Source: a virus. From it: DNA of 34,417 nucleotides. Positions 3,450 through 34,417 of this stretch are shown piece after piece. The notes beneath the pieces were generated by a model. The model saw only the letters and a program-made list of their open reading frames with translations, was not told the DNA's origin and made no database searches. The position numbers and the translations under genes were made by a program. The stretch lies in the IMG/VR virus record IMGVR_UViG_3300045999_003053, positions 1 to 34,417 of that record; one strand, 5' to 3'. The first letter of the stretch is position 1. Every line of letters begins with the position of its first letter.

Positions 3450-4210
3450 TGAAGTACAAGAACATACCAGTAGAATTCAAGGCCGATGAGCAGGGCAGCG
3501 TTGAAGCGTTTGTAAGCGTCTTCGGCAATGTCGACTCATACGGCGATCGCGTTATCTACGGCGCATTCAAGGAAAGCATAGAAGCCAAGCTGCCCAAGAT
3601 GGTGTGGCAGCACGATATGCAGCGACCGATAGGTAAAACTGTTTTAGCAGAAGAGATACCAGCGGGTGATGCGCGTCTGCCAGAGCGTCTACGCGATAAC
3701 GGCGCGCTATATGTGAAGGGCCTGTTCAACCTCAACACTACCGACGGCAAAGACGCATACGAGCATATCAAGTTTGGGAGCGTTGATGAGTACAGCTTTG
3801 GCTATGAAGAAGTAGAGACAACACCGCTCGCAGATGGTACAAAAGAACTTAACAAACTAAACATAATCGAATGGTCACCGGTTACGGTAGGGGCAAACCC
3901 AATGACCATGACAAGTAACGTTAAAGCTATGACACTCGAAGAAAAGCTGGATGTAGCGGCTACGCTTATCAAGCAATCAGAAGAGCACGCACTCGCATAC
4001 GCGGATATGCGTAGTAAAGCGGGCCGTGTGCTCAACTCTAGAATCCGAGGCATGATCCTTTCACTTGCCGATCAATTGAAAGATGTCTCAAAAAATCTGT
4101 ATCAGCTTCATGCCGAGACAGACCCAATACCAAAGGCAGACGATAAGGAGTTAAAGCGCAAGCAACTCCTATCGCTTATGCAAACAATAAACACAATGGA
4201 GATAATCTAA
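3449..4210 (+). CDS. HK97-family prohead protease (peptidase S78-like)
   Basis: This protease processes the capsid subunits after procapsid assembly. At 253 aa it has the family layout: an N-terminal beta core with AFVSVFGNVDSYGDRV (residues 20-35), the catalytic His in MVWQHD (H55), the catalytic Ser in EYSFGY (S116), and EWSPVTVGANPMT (E141) that usually closes the catalytic domain. The last 90 residues are helical and charged, as expected of the part that targets the protease into the prohead and is later removed. The gene lies between portal and major capsid gene with one-base TAATG overlaps on both sides, so translation is probably coupled. Confidence 0.95.
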   Translation: MKYKNIPVEFKADEQGSVEAFVSVFGNVDSYGDRVIYGAFKESIEAKLPKMVWQHDMQRPIGKTVLAEEIPAGDARLPERLRDNGALYVKGLFNLNTTDGKDAYEHIKFGSVDEYSFGYEEVETTPLADGTKELNKLNIIEWSPVTVGANPMTMTSNVKAMTLEEKLDVAATLIKQSEEHALAYADMRSKAGRVLNSRIRGMILSLADQLKDVSKNLYQLHAETDPIPKADDKELKRKQLLSLMQTINTMEII

Positions 4211-5670
4211 TGACGTGGGAAGAAATCCTCGCCGCTTTGGATGCCGTTCTCGCCGGTACGTTTGAGACACCGGAAGCAATGGCCGCCGAAGTAGCAACAA
4301 TCCGCGAGCAGATCGCGGCGCTTCTAGCAGAAGCATCTGAAGAAACAGCCGAAGTTGAAGAGGTATCGGCAGCCGTAGAGGGTGCAGCAAAGGCACAAGC
4401 CAAGCTCGCTCGTATTATGACAATCATTCAACAAAAGAAGGCGCTTAACGATATGAAGACAAAGAACGCTTCAGATCTTAACGCACTCAAGACAGCGGCC
4501 CCAGTACCTTCTGGATTCGTTGCAGAAGGCGCAAAGATCACAGGCCAGCACTACCGTGGCAAGGCATTTAAGCAGTTCGGCAGCGAAGCAGGAGCAGCGG
4601 CATACAAGGCAGGACGCCAGATTGCAGCTTGCCTCGGCGATGCTAGCTCGGCTCAATGGTGCAAAGAGAACGGCGTGCCAATGCAGAAGACAATGGCAAC
4701 TACCAACAACTCGCTTGGTGGTTTGACTGTTGTTGACGAACTGGATCAAGCTATCCTTTATTATCGTGAAGAGCGCGGCGTAGCTCGCGGTATCATGGAC
4801 GTAGTATCCATGAACAGCGAAACGCGCACAGTTAACCGTAACGTAGGCGGCACGGCTGTATACGCACTTGGCGAAGGCCAAACATATACAGAGTCAGATG
4901 TGCAGTTCAGCGGCGTTCAGCTTACAGCGAAGAAGTTCGGTGCTCTTACGCAGAACACGATTGAGCTCGGCGAAGATTCATACGCAGCAATCGCAGAAGA
5001 GATTGCAAAGGATCACGGCTATGCTCACGCTGTACAAGAAGATAAGGTTGCTTTCTTGGGCGATGGTACTTCAACATACAACGGCCTTGTAGGTTTGACC
5101 GAATCATTCAAGCAGCTTGTAACTGGAGTTGGTGGCACATGGGCTACTGACAACAACAAGGTATATGCAGCCGGCGTACAAGTAGCATCAGGTGCAACGC
5201 TTGCCACTATCACACTTGGCGATATCATCAAGACGCAAGCAAAGGTTGCTACATTCCCCGGAATGAATAACCGCTTCTACGTTCCATCGCAAGTATGGTA
5301 CGGCACGATTGTACCTCTTATCCAAACATCTGGCGGCAACACAACTACGCAGCTTGTAGACGGCGTAACACGTCAGTTCTTCAACGGTGCTGAAGTTGTC
5401 TTCACAGATGAGCTTTACACGCCGCTTCTTACAGCAGAGAACAGCCAGTTCGTACTGTTTTATGGTGATGCTGCTCAAGCTGGTTTGTTTGGCGATCGTC
5501 GCGGACTATCTATCACAAGCTCGCAAGAAGTTGGCTTCCTGACAGATACGCAATACAACAAGTCCACAGCTCGCTACGGCGTAAACTGGTGGAACATCGG
5601 TAACGCTTCAACAACAGCATCAGCACGTCAACGCGGCGCGCTTGCAGCTCTTGTAACAAAGAACTCATAA
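4210..5670 (+). CDS. Major capsid protein, HK97 fold, with N-terminal scaffold (delta) domain
   Basis: This is the shell protein. The 486-aa product starts with about 100 residues rich in Glu and Ala with coiled-coil character, which fits the delta domain that acts as internal scaffold and is cut off by the adjacent protease. The mature part probably begins somewhere after residue 95-105. It has typical HK97-family sequence: GGLTVVDELDQAILYYREER, then TRTVNRNVGG, GEGQTYTESDVQFSGVQLTAKKFGALTQNTIEL, and the C-terminal GDRRGLSI segment. The start codon overlaps the protease stop (TAATG). Many codons seem chosen from a narrow set (for example GTA and ACA), consistent with high expression. The cleavage site cannot be fixed from sequence alone. 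Confidence 0.95.
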   Translation: MTWEEILAALDAVLAGTFETPEAMAAEVATIREQIAALLAEASEETAEVEEVSAAVEGAAKAQAKLARIMTIIQQKKALNDMKTKNASDLNALKTAAPVPSGFVAEGAKITGQHYRGKAFKQFGSEAGAAAYKAGRQIAACLGDASSAQWCKENGVPMQKTMATTNNSLGGLTVVDELDQAILYYREERGVARGIMDVVSMNSETRTVNRNVGGTAVYALGEGQTYTESDVQFSGVQLTAKKFGALTQNTIELGEDSYAAIAEEIAKDHGYAHAVQEDKVAFLGDGTSTYNGLVGLTESFKQLVTGVGGTWATDNNKVYAAGVQVASGATLATITLGDIIKTQAKVATFPGMNNRFYVPSQVWYGTIVPLIQTSGGNTTTQLVDGVTRQFFNGAEVVFTDELYTPLLTAENSQFVLFYGDAAQAGLFGDRRGLSITSSQEVGFLTDTQYNKSTARYGVNWWNIGNASTTASARQRGALAALVTKNS

Positions 5671-28426: not shown

Positions 28427-28627
28427 ATGTACCAAGAACAAACAGACCCGGATTTCGTTATCCACTTGATAAGCAAGTTCGATGACGATCAGCTTGTAGA
28501 ATGGCATGAACGTGCCGGTATCTACGAATACGAAGCAAACATGAGCAGAGATGCAGCGGAATACAAAGCCGCATTGGATGTATTAACAACTATCGCGCAA
28601 AGAATGCGCAAGAAGGGCACACGATGA
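28427..28627 (+). CDS. Small acidic hypothetical protein
   Basis: 66 aa, helical and acidic (DFVIHLISKFDDDQLVEWHE, YEANMSRDAAEYKAALDVL), with a basic end (RMRKKGTR). Ribosome site AGGG about 9 bases upstream. It precedes the SSB-like gene with a four-base overlap. Unknown function. Confidence 0.6.
   Translation: MYQEQTDPDFVIHLISKFDDDQLVEWHERAGIYEYEANMSRDAAEYKAALDVLTTIAQRMRKKGTR
28458..28466 (+). promoter_or_regulatory. DnaA-box-like site 1
   Basis: TTATCCACT matches eight of nine bases of the DnaA box TTATCCACA. It lies within a coding region. One of four TTATCCAC sites I found, all between 28.4 and 32.4 kb. Confidence 0.4.
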
Positions 28628-29371: not shown

Positions 29372-29951
29372 TTACCCGAACTGGTTTGACTCGGTAGCAC
29401 GAGCAAACTTTACAGAGTTTTTGCTGCCAGAAGCGGGCCGCGATAACTACCAAGCATTGCAGATCGGCGCATTTGTAGGTCACGCAAGCGATTGGCTGCT
29501 ACGGTATGTGCTAACAGGTGATAAAGTGATGCTATATGACGTAGACACGTGGCAGGGCAGCGACGAAGCAGAGCACGAGCTGTTTGATTGGCAAGACGTT
29601 TTCGACACGTACCTATCGCGCATCGGGCTGCGGGCATACATGAAGTGCCGATACTTCCGTATGACGTCAGATAGGTTCTTCGATAGCTACACGAACATGC
29701 TAGATCGCAATCAGTTCGACTTTATCTACATCGATGGCGACCATACCGCAGATCAGGTATGGAAAGACGGCGCAAAGGGCTGGAAGTATCTCAAGCAGGG
29801 CGGCATACTTGCCTTTGATGACTACGAATGGGATGGGGGCAAGGGGACGGCACATAATCCAAAGCAGGGGATTGACACGTTTTTAGAAGTACACGACGGC
29901 GAATACGAGCTGCTAGCAAAGAACTGGCAAGTATGGCTGCGGAAGTTGTGA
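29364..29951 (+). CDS. SAM-dependent class I methyltransferase
   Basis: 195 aa from ATG 29364 with GGAGGG upstream. An NYQALQIGAFVGHASDWLL segment at about residues 28-46 is the SAM-binding loop with an unusual QIGAFVG in place of E-G...G. KVMLYDVDTW follows (D of motif II), then FDFIYIDGDHTADQVWKD at about 118-135 and LKQGGILAFDDYEW. This order is typical of Methyltransf_24-like enzymes, many of which act on sugars or small molecules. Together with the glycosyltransferase it could belong to glycan modification, but the two genes are 17 kb apart. Confidence 0.8.
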   Translation: MTDYPNWFDSVARANFTEFLLPEAGRDNYQALQIGAFVGHASDWLLRYVLTGDKVMLYDVDTWQGSDEAEHELFDWQDVFDTYLSRIGLRAYMKCRYFRMTSDRFFDSYTNMLDRNQFDFIYIDGDHTADQVWKDGAKGWKYLKQGGILAFDDYEWDGGKGTAHNPKQGIDTFLEVHDGEYELLAKNWQVWLRKL

Positions 29952-29953
29952 TA

Positions 29954-29962
29954 CGTGGATAA
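29954..29962 (-). promoter_or_regulatory. DnaA-box-like site 2 (non-coding)
   Basis: TTATCCACG on the minus strand, in the 72-base gap just upstream of the replication initiator gene. Eight of nine bases match the DnaA box. The only one of the four sites that is not in a coding region. Confidence 0.5.
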
Positions 29963-29987
29963 CGCGCGCAGAGAAATATCATCCAAT

Positions 29988-30005
29988 TATGGCGTAAGTG
30001 CCATA
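29988..30005. promoter_or_regulatory. Inverted repeat upstream of the initiator gene
   Basis: TATGGC (29988-29993) and GCCATA (30000-30005) form a perfect 6-bp inverted repeat around GTAAGT, 18 bases before the ATG at 30024. Together with the DnaA-like site it fills most of the 72-base gap. It may be an operator or RNA hairpin that controls the initiator. Confidence 0.4.
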
Positions 30006-30023
30006 GATTGCTAATTCCTAAAC

Positions 30024-30950
30024 ATGAACAACAACATAGACAATACGACCCAGATGCTAGAAGATTCCTTCACCGGAGACGGTGCGGGCGGTTCATTCAT
30101 GACCGAGGAAAATCAGCTAGCATCTGGGTTTCCTATTTATGGTATGGAAAACTCGTGGATTAAGCTCCATCGTAAGATATTAGAGAACTGGGTATTTAAG
30201 CAAAGGCCGGAATACTTAAAGATTTGGGTATACATATTGATCGCTGCAAACTGGAAACCAAGCAAGGCGTTGGTCAATGGTCAGTTTGTCACAATCGAGC
30301 GCGGCGAGATGCTCACAAGCTACCGATCACTAGCAGAAGGGGCCGGAACTACGGTGCAAATCGTGAAAACCTTTCTCAAGTACGCAGAAAACGATGGGAT
30401 GATTAGCGTCAAAAGCAACACAGCAGCAACACGCCTTAAGATATTGAATTACGAAGACTTACAAGGACGTGAAAACAACGATCAACACACGCCTAACACA
30501 CGGTTAACACACGATCAACACACGCCTAACACTATCATAAGAAGTAAAGAATATAAAGAAGGTAAGAAAGAAAGAATAGAAGAAGAAGATAAAGATAGTG
30601 TGAGTATGCGCTCGCGCGCATTTACGCGCCCAAGTTGTCAAGAAATCCTTGACTACTTCATTGAGCTAGGCAGTACGCAGGAAGAAGCAAACAAATTCTT
30701 CGACCATTACACGGCTAACGGCTGGAAAGTGGGCAAGAACGCGATGAAAGACTGGAAAGCAACAGCGCGGAATTGGAACAGGAACAAAGGCAAGTTTGGC
30801 AAAGAAGCTGATCAGCAGATTGCGATCCGCACAAAACCCGCAGGATTGCCGAAGCAGGTGGTCGAATTGTACCAAAAAGAGCTACCATCAGAAATTGAAA
30901 TAGAGCGCATGAAAGCTCTATACCTGTCCAAAGTATCAAACAACGAATAA
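30024..30950 (+). CDS. Replication initiator (winged-helix/DnaD-like)
   Basis: The 308-aa protein has an N-terminal winged-helix region: NSWIKLHRKILENWVFKQRP (about residues 43-62), YLKIWVYILIAANWKP, then VTIERGEMLTSYRSLAEGAG and VKTFLKYAENDGMI. A repeat-bearing, charged linker at 150-195 carries DQHTPNT twice. The C-terminal domain has EILDYFIELG and FDHYTANGWKVGKNAMKDWK, then ARNWNRNKGKFG, resembling the last domain of phage replication proteins of the DnaD/O type. It probably opens the origin and loads the host helicase. The origin itself seems to lie inside this gene. Start ATG 30024 has no clear ribosome site; ATG 30099 (MTEENQ) is possible. Confidence 0.8.
   Translation: MNNNIDNTTQMLEDSFTGDGAGGSFMTEENQLASGFPIYGMENSWIKLHRKILENWVFKQRPEYLKIWVYILIAANWKPSKALVNGQFVTIERGEMLTSYRSLAEGAGTTVQIVKTFLKYAENDGMISVKSNTAATRLKILNYEDLQGRENNDQHTPNTRLTHDQHTPNTIIRSKEYKEGKKERIEEEDKDSVSMRSRAFTRPSCQEILDYFIELGSTQEEANKFFDHYTANGWKVGKNAMKDWKATARNWNRNKGKFGKEADQQIAIRTKPAGLPKQVVELYQKELPSEIEIERMKALYLSKVSNNE
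30478..30532. repeat. Iterons of the putative replication origin
   Basis: A 22-base sequence (core GATCAACACACGCCTAACAC) occurs at 30478-30499 and 30511-30532, a period of 33 bases. A related 12-mer, GGTTAACACACG, lies in between at 30502-30513. In the protein the repeat gives DQHTPNT twice in the linker. Direct repeats within the initiator gene, next to an A-rich tract, are the arrangement of the lambda O origin. Confidence 0.75.
30537..30608. other. C-free, A-rich tract beside the iterons (unwinding element candidate)
   Basis: The 72 bases from 30537 to 30608 have no C on the + strand; in 30541-30600 A makes up 60% and G 27%. It directly follows the iterons. Such strand-asymmetric, easily melted tracts accompany the lambda O iterons. 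It encodes a Lys/Glu-rich linker (KEGKKERIEEEDKD), so the bias is partly due to the protein. Confidence 0.65.
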
Positions 30951-30965
30951 AAACGCGTCTACGGG

Positions 30966-31005
30966 GCTGGAAACGGCCAGCAAACAACTATTAAGCATTA
31001 CTTAA
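30966..31005. promoter_or_regulatory. Two short hairpins in the gap before the DnaA-like gene
   Basis: GCTGG/CCAGC (30966-30970 with 30977-30981) and TTAAG/CTTAA (30991-30995 with 31001-31005) are two perfect 5-bp inverted repeats. They lie in the 83-base non-coding gap 30951-31033. No T-run follows either. GGAGGG for the next gene is at 31022-31027. May be a control region; weak evidence. Confidence 0.3.
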
Positions 31006-31033
31006 CAACTCAAAAACAACACGGAGGGTAAAT

Positions 31034-31603
31034 ATGAGGCGGTATAGAAAGCTAAATGAGGTGCTCGCAATGTCCGACACCATCCTAAAATACTTTGACG
31101 TGCACCGGTCACGGTTCGTAACATGGGCTCTTAAACAGCCCGACCTATTCCCAGAAGTAGGCAAGCGCGCGATGCAGGACTACTTGTGCATAGCACTCAA
31201 TAGGCACATGATCCCTTCACACATAACAGACACCAGAAGAGCACTTAAAATTATCAAACAAAAACATACCATGAGACCAAACACGCAAAACCCAGCTATC
31301 CTAAACCTTATCGACCAATTTTGCAAGCTGTACAACTGCACATGGGAGCAGCTTGTAGCGCAATCCCGCTTTCATTGGGTCGTAGAATGCCGATACCTGC
31401 TCATGTACTTTCTGTTTACGAAGTACCGACTATCTAACTCATTGATAGCGCGGCTATTTAACAAGCACCATTCGTCGGTTATCCACGCTTTGCGGAACAT
31501 GCGTAACCAAATCGAAACAGATGCTAACTTCCGTGAATACGTGGAACGTATGGAAACGCTGCTAGATATTAACTTTACCGTGCAAGTGGAAGAGATACAA
31601 TGA
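31034..31603 (+). CDS. Stand-alone DnaA domain IV-like DNA-binding protein
   Basis: The 189-aa protein has in its second half the pattern of the DnaA C-terminal DNA-binding domain: LIDQFCKLYNCTWEQLVAQS (about residues 93-112), YLLMYFLFTKYRLSNSLIAR, and LFNKHHSSVIHALRNMRNQI. The last segment matches the DnaA signature (F..RDHTTVIHA..K), with KHHSSVIHA in its place. The AAA+ ATPase domain is absent. The N-terminal 85 residues are basic, helical and not recognised. It should bind DnaA boxes, several of which lie around it, and could compete with or recruit host DnaA. GGAGGG ribosome site. Confidence 0.85.
   Translation: MRRYRKLNEVLAMSDTILKYFDVHRSRFVTWALKQPDLFPEVGKRAMQDYLCIALNRHMIPSHITDTRRALKIIKQKHTMRPNTQNPAILNLIDQFCKLYNCTWEQLVAQSRFHWVVECRYLLMYFLFTKYRLSNSLIARLFNKHHSSVIHALRNMRNQIETDANFREYVERMETLLDINFTVQVEEIQ
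31479..31487 (+). promoter_or_regulatory. DnaA-box-like site 3
   Basis: TTATCCACG inside the DnaA-like gene. It encodes part of the VIHAL signature, so codon constraint alone may explain it. Confidence 0.3.
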
Positions 31604-32910
31604 GCTTCGAGCTACATCTTGGCAACTGTTTAGACATACTTGCAACCATGCCAGACAACAGCGTGGATGCTATTGTCACAGATCCGCCCTATGGTCTGGC
31701 GTTTATGGGTAAGAAGTGGGACTATGACGTACCAAGCGAAGAGATCTGGCGTGAATGTCTCCGCGTGCTCAAACCGGGTGGTCATCTGTTAGCCTTTGCA
31801 GGAACACGGACGCAGCACCGTATGGCCGTGCGTATCGAGGATGCAGGGTTTGAGATACGGGACATGATCGCATGGGTCTATGGCTCGGGGTTTCCAAAGT
31901 CGCACGACATAAGCAAGGCGATTGATAAGGCCGCAGGGGTGGAACGCACTGAGGTGATTGGCACCAAGTTGGGCCTCCCTGGGATGGCCAAGGATGGCAG
32001 TAACCAGCGCAGCGGATTTGATGCCGCTTTTGGTGGTGATGCTTGCGGCCTTCTTTCGACTGACATCACCGCCCCCGCAACTTTAGCCGCCAAACAATGG
32101 CAAGGCTGGGGTACTGCGCTCAAACCTGCGCTGGAGCCTATTACCGTGGCACGCAAGCCGTTCACGGGAACGGTGGCGGCGAATGTACTGCAATGGGGAA
32201 CGGGTGGCGTGAATGTGGATGGGTGCAGGGTGGAAGGAAATGTGACAACTTGGCCTGCAATACGCACCAACAATAGAAACAATGCAAACGCATACGGCAC
32301 TTATGCGTCGCAAGAAACAACGGGCACACCGTCAACCCTCGGCCGCTTTCCCGCGAACCTTATCCACGACGGTAGTGATGAGGTGGTGGGGATGTTTCCG
32401 GAGACGAAGACGGGGAAGCCGACGTTGGGCAGTCAACCAACGACCGGCGAGGTGTTCGGCGCGTATGCGCAGCGCAGCACGGTAGGAGGTGTCGATTCCG
32501 GCTCCGCAGCCCGCTTCTTCTACTGCGCAAAGGCATCCAAGCGAGACAGGGACGAGGGATGCGAGGGGATGGAGGCGCAAAACCTTCGATATGGCGATGG
32601 TAGGGGGCGAAGTCATGAAATGTATAATACAACAAGCGATAATCGTCCAACGCCCACCAACCCTGCTCGCACCAACCACCACCCCACCGTCAAACCCACC
32701 GACCTCATGCGCTACCTGTGCAGGCTGGTAACACCACCGAACGGCACGGTTCTCGATCCGTTCATGGGCAGCGGCTCCACAGGCAAAGCAGCCATCTTGG
32801 AAGGGTTCCAGTTTATCGGAATTGACATGACACCCGAATATGTAGACATCGCACGTGCACGGATTGAGCACGCAGTAAAGTCAAAGCCGAATAAGCTGGA
32901 TTTGGAGTAA
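31600..32910 (+). CDS. DNA methyltransferase, beta class (N6-adenine or N4-cytosine)
   Basis: The 436-aa enzyme has the catalytic motif DPPY at residues 28-31 (DAIVTDPPYGLAFMGKKW) and the SAM-binding motif near the C-terminus (DPFMGSGSTGKAAILEGFQF, then IGIDMTPEYVDIARARI). Catalytic-before-SAM order is the beta class. Residues of about 110-370 hold the target recognition region. It methylates the phage DNA, presumably against restriction; no restriction gene accompanies it. From about 31,930 to 32,770 the DNA is about 60-65% GC in lines counted, against 42-47% just upstream, so the middle of the gene is probably of foreign origin. ATGA overlap with the DnaA-like gene. Confidence 0.9.
   Translation: MSFELHLGNCLDILATMPDNSVDAIVTDPPYGLAFMGKKWDYDVPSEEIWRECLRVLKPGGHLLAFAGTRTQHRMAVRIEDAGFEIRDMIAWVYGSGFPKSHDISKAIDKAAGVERTEVIGTKLGLPGMAKDGSNQRSGFDAAFGGDACGLLSTDITAPATLAAKQWQGWGTALKPALEPITVARKPFTGTVAANVLQWGTGGVNVDGCRVEGNVTTWPAIRTNNRNNANAYGTYASQETTGTPSTLGRFPANLIHDGSDEVVGMFPETKTGKPTLGSQPTTGEVFGAYAQRSTVGGVDSGSAARFFYCAKASKRDRDEGCEGMEAQNLRYGDGRGRSHEMYNTTSDNRPTPTNPARTNHHPTVKPTDLMRYLCRLVTPPNGTVLDPFMGSGSTGKAAILEGFQFIGIDMTPEYVDIARARIEHAVKSKPNKLDLE
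32360..32368 (+). promoter_or_regulatory. DnaA-box-like site 4
   Basis: TTATCCACG within the methyltransferase gene; eight of nine bases match the DnaA box. Confidence 0.35.
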
Positions 32911-32913
32911 ATA

Positions 32914-33387
32914 ATGCGGTTTTTTTCAACTAGATCAGAGCACCGCAAAATGGGACGTAAAAAGTTAGAACTTGATGAAGAGAAAATATGGGAAGCTGCA
33001 ACTAAAGGGGCGACCTATGAAGCTATTGCGAGAGCACTCGGCAAGGATGCAGACGGCAAACCGGTAGTCTCTAGCGATACCATACGCAGGCGCTACGCAG
33101 AGCTTATATCGCAGGCAAAGGCTAACGGCGATATTGAGCTTTACGCTGCCCTATGGGAAGAAGGCGTAATAGGCGTACCAGATCAGAACGGCAACAGGAA
33201 ACGCAATGCAGCGGTCTTGCTGCGCCTTGCAGAGCATCGACTCGGTATGTCCCAGAAGATGCACCAAACCAATGAGCGGCAAGAGTTTAACATCGTTATT
33301 GGCCCTAAACCAAATACCATACCACTAGAAGCAGATGATACAAGTAACAACACCATTGCCAGCGCAGACGGCCTTCTGGAACAGTAG
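32914..33387 (+). CDS. terS: Terminase small subunit (complete copy)
   Basis: The 157-aa protein recognises the packaging site and regulates the large subunit. KIWEAATKGATYEAIARALG (about residues 24-43) is a helix-turn-helix; VSSDTIRRRYAELISQAK follows as the second helix pair. The middle (LYAALWEEGV, NAAVLLRLAEHRLGM) is the oligomerising helical part. ATG 32914 has GGAG about 9 bases upstream; ATG 32950 (MGRKK) is a shorter choice. The 3' end overlaps terL. Identification rests on the HTH and on its place directly before terL. Confidence 0.8.
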   Translation: MRFFSTRSEHRKMGRKKLELDEEKIWEAATKGATYEAIARALGKDADGKPVVSSDTIRRRYAELISQAKANGDIELYAALWEEGVIGVPDQNGNRKRNAAVLLRLAEHRLGMSQKMHQTNERQEFNIVIGPKPNTIPLEADDTSNNTIASADGLLEQ

Positions 33388-34417
33388 AGCACGGCATCGG
33401 CTTTTCGTGGGTGGTATCGGTAGCGGCAAGACGCTGGCAGGATGCCTTGAGATACTACGGCAGCCGTCAGGGACATTTGGCACGGTCATAGCTCCTACCT
33501 ATCCCATGCTGCGGGATGCTACGCTGCTCACGTTCTTCGAGAAGTTTGGGCAAGCAGTCGAGAGCCATAACAAGAGCGAAGGCGTCACCGTGCTGCGTAA
33601 TGGTACTACCGTGTTCTGGAGATCAGCAGACAAGCCAGATTCACTGCGAGGCCCTAACCTGAACTGGTTCTACCTAGATGAAGCGGACTATATGGACGGC
33701 GCGACGTGGGACGTTATGCTTGGTCGTATTCGCCGCGATCCTACCGCTTGCTGGCTTACCACATCCCCTAATGGAGATACCAACTGGGTATACGAGCGCT
33801 TCTACCGTAAGTGGACAGAAGGCAATCCAGAATACTTTGTAGCGCAGGCAAAGACAAGGGACAATGTCCACCTACCGCCTGAATACGTCAGGACGCTCGA
33901 AGAAACGTATACGAGCGAGTTTGCGCGGCAGGAACTGGAAGGGGAATTCATCGGGCCAATGGGGCGCATCATGCGGAAAGAGTGGCTGCAATACGCTCTG
34001 CTTCCAGAAGATGACATAACGTACGTGATCGGCGTGGACTTGGCTGTTGGCATGAAGTCCAATGCAGATGATCGCGCTATCGTGGTGGTGGGCAAGCGTG
34101 GCACGACCTATTACGTCGCTGATGTGGTGTTTGGCAAATGGTCATTTAACGAAACCAAGGACAAGATCAAGCAGACTGCCTACAACTGGAATGCCGTCAG
34201 GGTGTGCGTTGAGAACGTGGCTTACCAAGAAGTCATGGTTCAACAGCTACGAGCCGAAACAATGCTTAACATACAAGGTGTCAATCCACGGGGCCGCAAT
34301 AAGCTCACACGCTTTCTGCCCATCGCAGGCAAGTATGAGCACGGCTATATCAAACATGTGAATAGCGTACCTTTGGAATTTACCGAGCAACTGCTTATGT
34401 TCGACGGCAAAGATGGG
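33137..34417. repeat. Right copy of diverged terminal repeat
   Basis: Counterpart of 1-1281 at a fixed offset of 33136: identical for the first 160 and last 99 bases, about 90 substitutions in between (about 93% identity overall by hand count), no gap. Confidence 0.95.
33335..34417 (+). CDS. terL: Terminase large subunit, second haplotype, cut by window end
   Basis: The frame opens at ATG 33335 and runs to the window end (361 codons). The product matches the terL at 199-1359 except at two residues: Asp for Tyr at 135 and Tyr for Phe at 153. The roughly 80 nucleotide changes within the gene are otherwise silent. Walker A, Walker B and the nuclease Asp are all kept. It is another strain's version of the same gene exposed by the circular assembly, rather than a second terminase gene of the phage. 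Confidence 0.9.
   Translation, partial: MIQVTTPLPAQTAFWNSRARHRLFVGGIGSGKTLAGCLEILRQPSGTFGTVIAPTYPMLRDATLLTFFEKFGQAVESHNKSEGVTVLRNGTTVFWRSADKPDSLRGPNLNWFYLDEADYMDGATWDVMLGRIRRDPTACWLTTSPNGDTNWVYERFYRKWTEGNPEYFVAQAKTRDNVHLPPEYVRTLEETYTSEFARQELEGEFIGPMGRIMRKEWLQYALLPEDDITYVIGVDLAVGMKSNADDRAIVVVGKRGTTYYVADVVFGKWSFNETKDKIKQTAYNWNAVRVCVENVAYQEVMVQQLRAETMLNIQGVNPRGRNKLTRFLPIAGKYEHGYIKHVNSVPLEFTEQLLMFDGKDG

Follow-up and report, generated by a model that had tools for sequence, protein, structure and literature searches.

The gene at 31034-31603 of the window, by which we mean the whole 34.4-kb virus record analyzed here, encodes a DNA-binding protein that has neither an ATPase nor a helicase-recruiting domain and whose C-terminal half is formed by a domain IV of the DnaA type. 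This protein (DnaA-IV) belongs to the replication module of the phage but seems not to be its initiator, a role that very probably falls to the DnaD-like protein encoded at 30024-30950. We tentatively rank first, at a probability of about 0.4, a reading in which DnaA-IV competes with host DnaA for DnaA boxes of the host.

A GGAGG ribosome-binding site precedes the open reading frame, and residues 92-154 of its 189-aa product match Bac_DnaA_C (Pfam PF08299) with an E value of 1.6e-9 and 38.1 bits, the curated cut-off being 31.5 bits. PF08299 is the sole Pfam family above cut-off in this protein, with no match to AAA+, and it is matched by all ten tested members of the protein group. An AlphaFold model built from 17 homologues, which replaced an earlier model from six sequences that was too poor, has a pLDDT of 86 and superposes on DNA-bound domain IV from M. 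tuberculosis (3pvp, 1.6 A) and E. coli (1j1v, 2.1 A), with TM values of 0.81-0.85 against isolated bacterial DnaA domains. The preliminary description of this DNA had recognized a phage-coded DnaA domain IV that lacks the AAA+ domain and had proposed structure prediction as a check; the domain IV fold was obtained, and Pfam, the fold model and the solved DnaA-box complexes bear out the domain assignment, and Pfam the missing AAA+ domain. The N-terminal module of about 80 aa has no informative family match. Features of the region are collected in Table 1.

Table 1. Features in and around the gene for the stand-alone DnaA domain IV.
Feature	Position	Strand	Basis or context
Stand-alone DnaA domain IV protein, 189 aa	31034..31603	+	ORF, PF08299, AlphaFold model, 43/43 terminase loci
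Domain IV core, recognition helix NKHHSSVIHALRNM	31274..31600	+	Pfam, alignment of relatives
Optional N-terminal helical module, about residues 1-80	31034..31273	+	Missing from several relatives
TTATCCAC then T	28458..28465	+	Val-Ile-His codons of ORF 28427-28627
TTATCCAC then G	29955..29962	-	Intergenic; in 10/27 records
TTATCCAC then G	31479..31486	+	Val-Ile-His codons of recognition helix
TTATCCAC then G	32360..32367	+	Leu-Ile-His codons in accessory methylase gene
DnaD-like helicase loader / putative replication initiator	30024..30950	+	phrog_2514 E 1.2e-30; tblastn to DnaD-domain proteins of named phages
Covarying three-way-junction RNA (or single-stranded DNA) structure	30047..30130	+	5' part of DnaD-like gene
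Five 11-bp iterons ACGNNYAACAC, probable replication origin	30478..30532	+	Inside DnaD-like gene
AT-rich purine tract, probable unwinding region	30533..30600	+	Adjoins iterons; same arrangement in relatives

Base-contacting residues of DnaA domain IV were assigned from published work (PMC7561715 and PMC5043019). The window protein has the domain IV fold and residues R399, R407, H434 and H439 (DnaA numbering) in common with bacterial DnaA (E. coli 1j1v, M. tuberculosis 3pvp, Aquifex 1l8q). It differs from bacterial DnaA in lacking domains I-III, and hence ATP binding, filament formation and helicase recruitment, and in four changed DNA-contact positions, two of them conservative replacements (R432K and T435S) and two of another kind (P423S and D433H). 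The preliminary claim that the box-binding signature is kept consequently holds only in part, with the four retained residues in its favor and, against it, the four changes together with the failure of the protein to match our rendering of the PROSITE DnaA signature pattern. Relatives of the protein exhibit three versions of the recognition helix: HHSSV in the window clade, DHTTV in loci L022-L024, L028 and L062, and DRTTV in L055-L061, with H434R in the L058 clade. Most DnaA contact residues are retained in the DHTTV versions and in those of unrelated phages. Recognition of standard boxes is uncertain because of D433H and T435S in the window helix and H434R in the L058 clade.

The relatives compared comprise 33 loci from a first scan and further, more distant loci. 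Domain IV is their constant part, and in L025, L026, L028 and L055-L062 the protein is about 110 aa long and consists of domain IV alone. DnaA-IV is a core gene of the phage group with an optional N-terminal part of about 80 aa, as it occurs in every one of the 43 terminase loci that have upstream sequence, usually as the last gene before that of the terminase small subunit (terS). In the window an inserted DNA methylase gene (31600-32910) lies between DnaA-IV and terS; it is absent from this place in most relatives, and some relatives carry other insertions of other sizes there. HHSSV and DHTTV are both found in phages with 99% identical terminase, so the helix alleles do not obviously track the host. 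Terminase and DnaD neighbors among named phages are less than 40% identical, and the searched genome contigs contained no relative of DnaA-IV or of the 4210-5670 product.

Similar proteins of several unrelated phages are located in replication modules. For example, the DnaA-like gene of Rhizobium phage RHph_N28_2 directly follows the gene for a DUF1376 protein, and that of Tenacibaculum phage Gundel_1 lies directly upstream of replication proteins. Given these proteins, and dozens already named 'DnaA C-terminal' in a fold search of viral proteins, the stand-alone phage domain IV is a known kind of protein that is already present in many phages. Those of Gundel_1 and RHph_N28_2, the 'chromosomal replication initiator, DnaA C-terminal' proteins of uncultured Caudovirales phages (BFVD) and the 'DNA replication initiation (DnaA)' proteins of pelagiphages are, like the window protein, small, made of domain IV without AAA+ and encoded in a replication module. 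They are about 25-35% identical to the window protein with unrelated N-terminal parts; the window protein differs from them by D433H and T435S, and it is paired with a DnaD-like initiator whose gene carries iterons. Records MT839132 and MT835965, filed as phage, were set aside, as they give a near full-length DnaA reading with the AAA+ part present. In the literature outside subscription journals we found no experimentally tested phage domain-IV protein.

The conserved domain of the neighboring DnaD-like protein begins near the ATG at 30144. An 11-bp iteron array followed by an AT-rich tract occurs at the same place in all 36 records examined, in six sequence types whose patterns were derived from the same sequences in which they were counted; the versions compared include those of L003, L012, L014, L028, L058 and L060. 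This layout, in which the initiator gene itself contains direct repeats and an AT-rich tract, is that of phage lambda, where gene O contains ori-lambda with its four iterons and AT-rich stretch (PMC3349717). The window differs from lambda in having 11-bp rather than 18-bp iterons, a DnaD-like rather than an O-type protein, an additional DnaA-IV gene and, toward the 5' end of the initiator gene, a structured RNA. In the DnaD-like protein the N-terminal part changes jointly with the repeat type, so that origin and initiator of this phage group appear as modules that are exchanged together. As we picture it, the DnaD-like protein would bind the iterons in its own gene in the manner of lambda, open the adjacent AT-rich tract and load the host helicase, steps that the arrangement strongly suggests. 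The helix type of DnaA-IV follows a different course: iteron type A is found with HHSSV, DHTTV and DRTTV and type B with two helix types, with no association between helix type and iteron types A and B (Fisher P = 1.0, with few DHTTV records). As helix type and iteron type assort independently, the iterons of the origin are probably not what DnaA-IV recognizes. The same test can be reused, in that independent assortment of a DNA-binding allele and an origin allele in recombining phages indicates that the protein is probably not the recognizer of that origin.

The DnaD-like gene also contains, in its 5' part, a probable mRNA element that would control the initiator. The sequence at 30047-30130 folds into a three-way junction with a 14-bp stem (z = -5.8; relatives down to -8.3) and ends 13-14 nt before the conserved internal ATG of the DnaD-like conserved domain. 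In the alignment of this element 99.1% of cells pair and 21 of the 31 pairs change on both sides (11 distinct sequences); every slid control is only 31-43% paired. There are 42 G-U cells versus 1 A-C cell, which indicates that it is the sense strand that folds, presumably as mRNA and less likely as single-stranded plus DNA. The reading frame is open through the structure in 13 of 13 sequences. Rfam 15 gives no match, and neither a pattern nor a model search found the element outside the phage group.

If DnaA-IV acts on the host, it would occupy DnaA-type host sites (oriC and other boxes) in competition with host DnaA; the preliminary description had likewise suggested that it might cover DnaA boxes of the host. 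Such a competitor could not form an initiation filament, so that host initiation would be limited and the host helicase thereby left to the phage loader. Several observations favor this reading: the domain IV comes without AAA+ and exists naturally in forms of about 110 aa that contain nothing else; a separate initiator candidate has its in-gene iterons in every record examined; the helix type is unlinked to the iteron type; the boxes are not maintained as a set among the phages, as described below; and the DHTTV and unrelated phage versions keep most contact residues. The main objection is the drift of contact residues described above. Also counted against host competition are the alleles that do not obviously track the host, and the location of the gene in replication modules of several unrelated phages, which fits a role in phage replication as well. 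If competition with host DnaA is nevertheless correct, these small domain-IV proteins, which are widespread, would act in nature as inhibitors of replication initiation in bacteria. We consider unlikely a more elaborate version in which the three helix alleles of a core, freely recombining, ATPase-less domain IV would occupy host initiation sites in an allele-specific manner while the phage would fire its DnaD/iteron origin, the initiator gene being controlled by the previously undescribed three-way-junction RNA that it carries.

A role in phage replication itself is possible, though we doubt it. DnaA-IV could be an accessory factor that binds a site close to the phage origin and assists the DnaD-like protein in initiation, for instance through an effect on DNA shape or through contacts of its own N-terminal module with DnaD or the helicase. 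The gene is a core gene that is always in the replication module and here adjoins the initiator, and its counterparts in RHph_N28_2 and Gundel_1 have the neighbors named above. However, both the helix type and the N-terminal module assort independently of origin type, the N-terminal module is missing from many relatives, and a conserved candidate site beside the origin was not found.

DnaA also regulates transcription. Domain IV might thus have been re-used as a helix-turn-helix protein that controls the downstream packaging and structural genes at the early/late boundary. The usual position of the gene immediately before terS and the drift of its recognition residues would suit such a regulator, as would a palindrome, TTAAG-N5-CTTAA, in its leader. 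We judge this reading improbable, since in insertion-free relatives there is hardly room for a promoter between DnaA-IV and terS, the sense strand has no sigma-70-like promoter in 29800-31100, and L023 lacks the palindrome, of which the window has just one exact copy. The palindrome (30991-31005) is also present in L028 and L062 and is a possible operator in its own right; an operator repeated elsewhere was rejected, as TTAAGCATTACTTAA has a single exact copy in the window.

There remains the question of whether the putative boxes around the gene form an origin served by the protein. The preliminary description had noted four sites within 28.4-32.4 kb, three of them identical 9-mers, and none elsewhere. 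An exact count of TTATCCAC on both strands of the window agrees, with four copies where 0.74 are expected, none in the rest of the window, and a 9-mer that reads TTATCCACG in three and TTATCCACT in one. Comparison with shuffled sequences, also proposed there, gives a split answer: 0 of 100 shuffles reach four, but a codon-preserving null (synonymous shuffling with the intergenic copy fixed) gives P(>=4)=0.13, so a genome-wide total of four is unremarkable. The confinement to 28.4-32.4 kb does stand out under the codon-preserving null (0/300), but 15 8-mers of the window genome are as tightly confined. The full 9-mer TTATNCACA has zero copies in the window, all four sites being without its final A.

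The individual sites have separate histories among the relatives. Site 31479 is the GTT ATC CAC that encodes Val-Ile-His of the helix HHSSVIHA; it is missing from relatives encoding DHTTVLHG, the canonical DHTTV helix, and is changed silently to TTATACAC in L012. Site 32360, inside the methylase gene, is not found in most relatives. At the intergenic site 29955, 15 of 27 records have CGTTGATAACG, counts that, like the others given for these sites, are not independent events since close relatives share ancestry. Site 28458 is retained in close relatives along with many other codons of its ORF and is lost in the divergent L058 clade; a special synonymous-site constraint was rejected here, as the other codons are equally invariant. 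Because the sites are lost, changed or explained by coding across relatives, a functional set of boxes in the phage is not supported and the sites around the gene appear mostly coincidental. Nor would phage-borne boxes be a general target, given that there is no conserved set and that the whole genomes (35-79 kb) of unrelated phages whose proteins are of the DHT type contain 0 to 2 copies of TTATNCACA; avoidance of full DnaA boxes by those phages was not visible relative to a reversed control pattern.

It is therefore very improbable that DnaA-IV is an initiator of the DnaA type for which the four sites serve as the phage origin, despite their confinement to 4 kb, since relatives have not kept them together, three of them are (Val/Leu)-Ile-His codons and one of these lies in an accessory gene, and a protein of 189 aa, with relatives of 110 aa, has neither AAA+ domain III nor domain I and stands beside another, probable initiator with iterons. 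The suggestion in the preliminary description that the protein loads helicase at the phage origin through these boxes thus gives way to the DnaD-like neighbor as the loader; the relatives that consist of domain IV alone have nothing left with which to load a helicase. A tempting annotation is hereby corrected, as a phage DnaA together with DnaA boxes does not necessarily denote a DnaA-type phage origin.

Apart from these genes, the ends of the record (1-1281 and 33137-34417) repeat each other with 93% identity (1191/1281). The genome is thus about 33.1 kb, and the two ends seem to derive from different strains of a mixed population.
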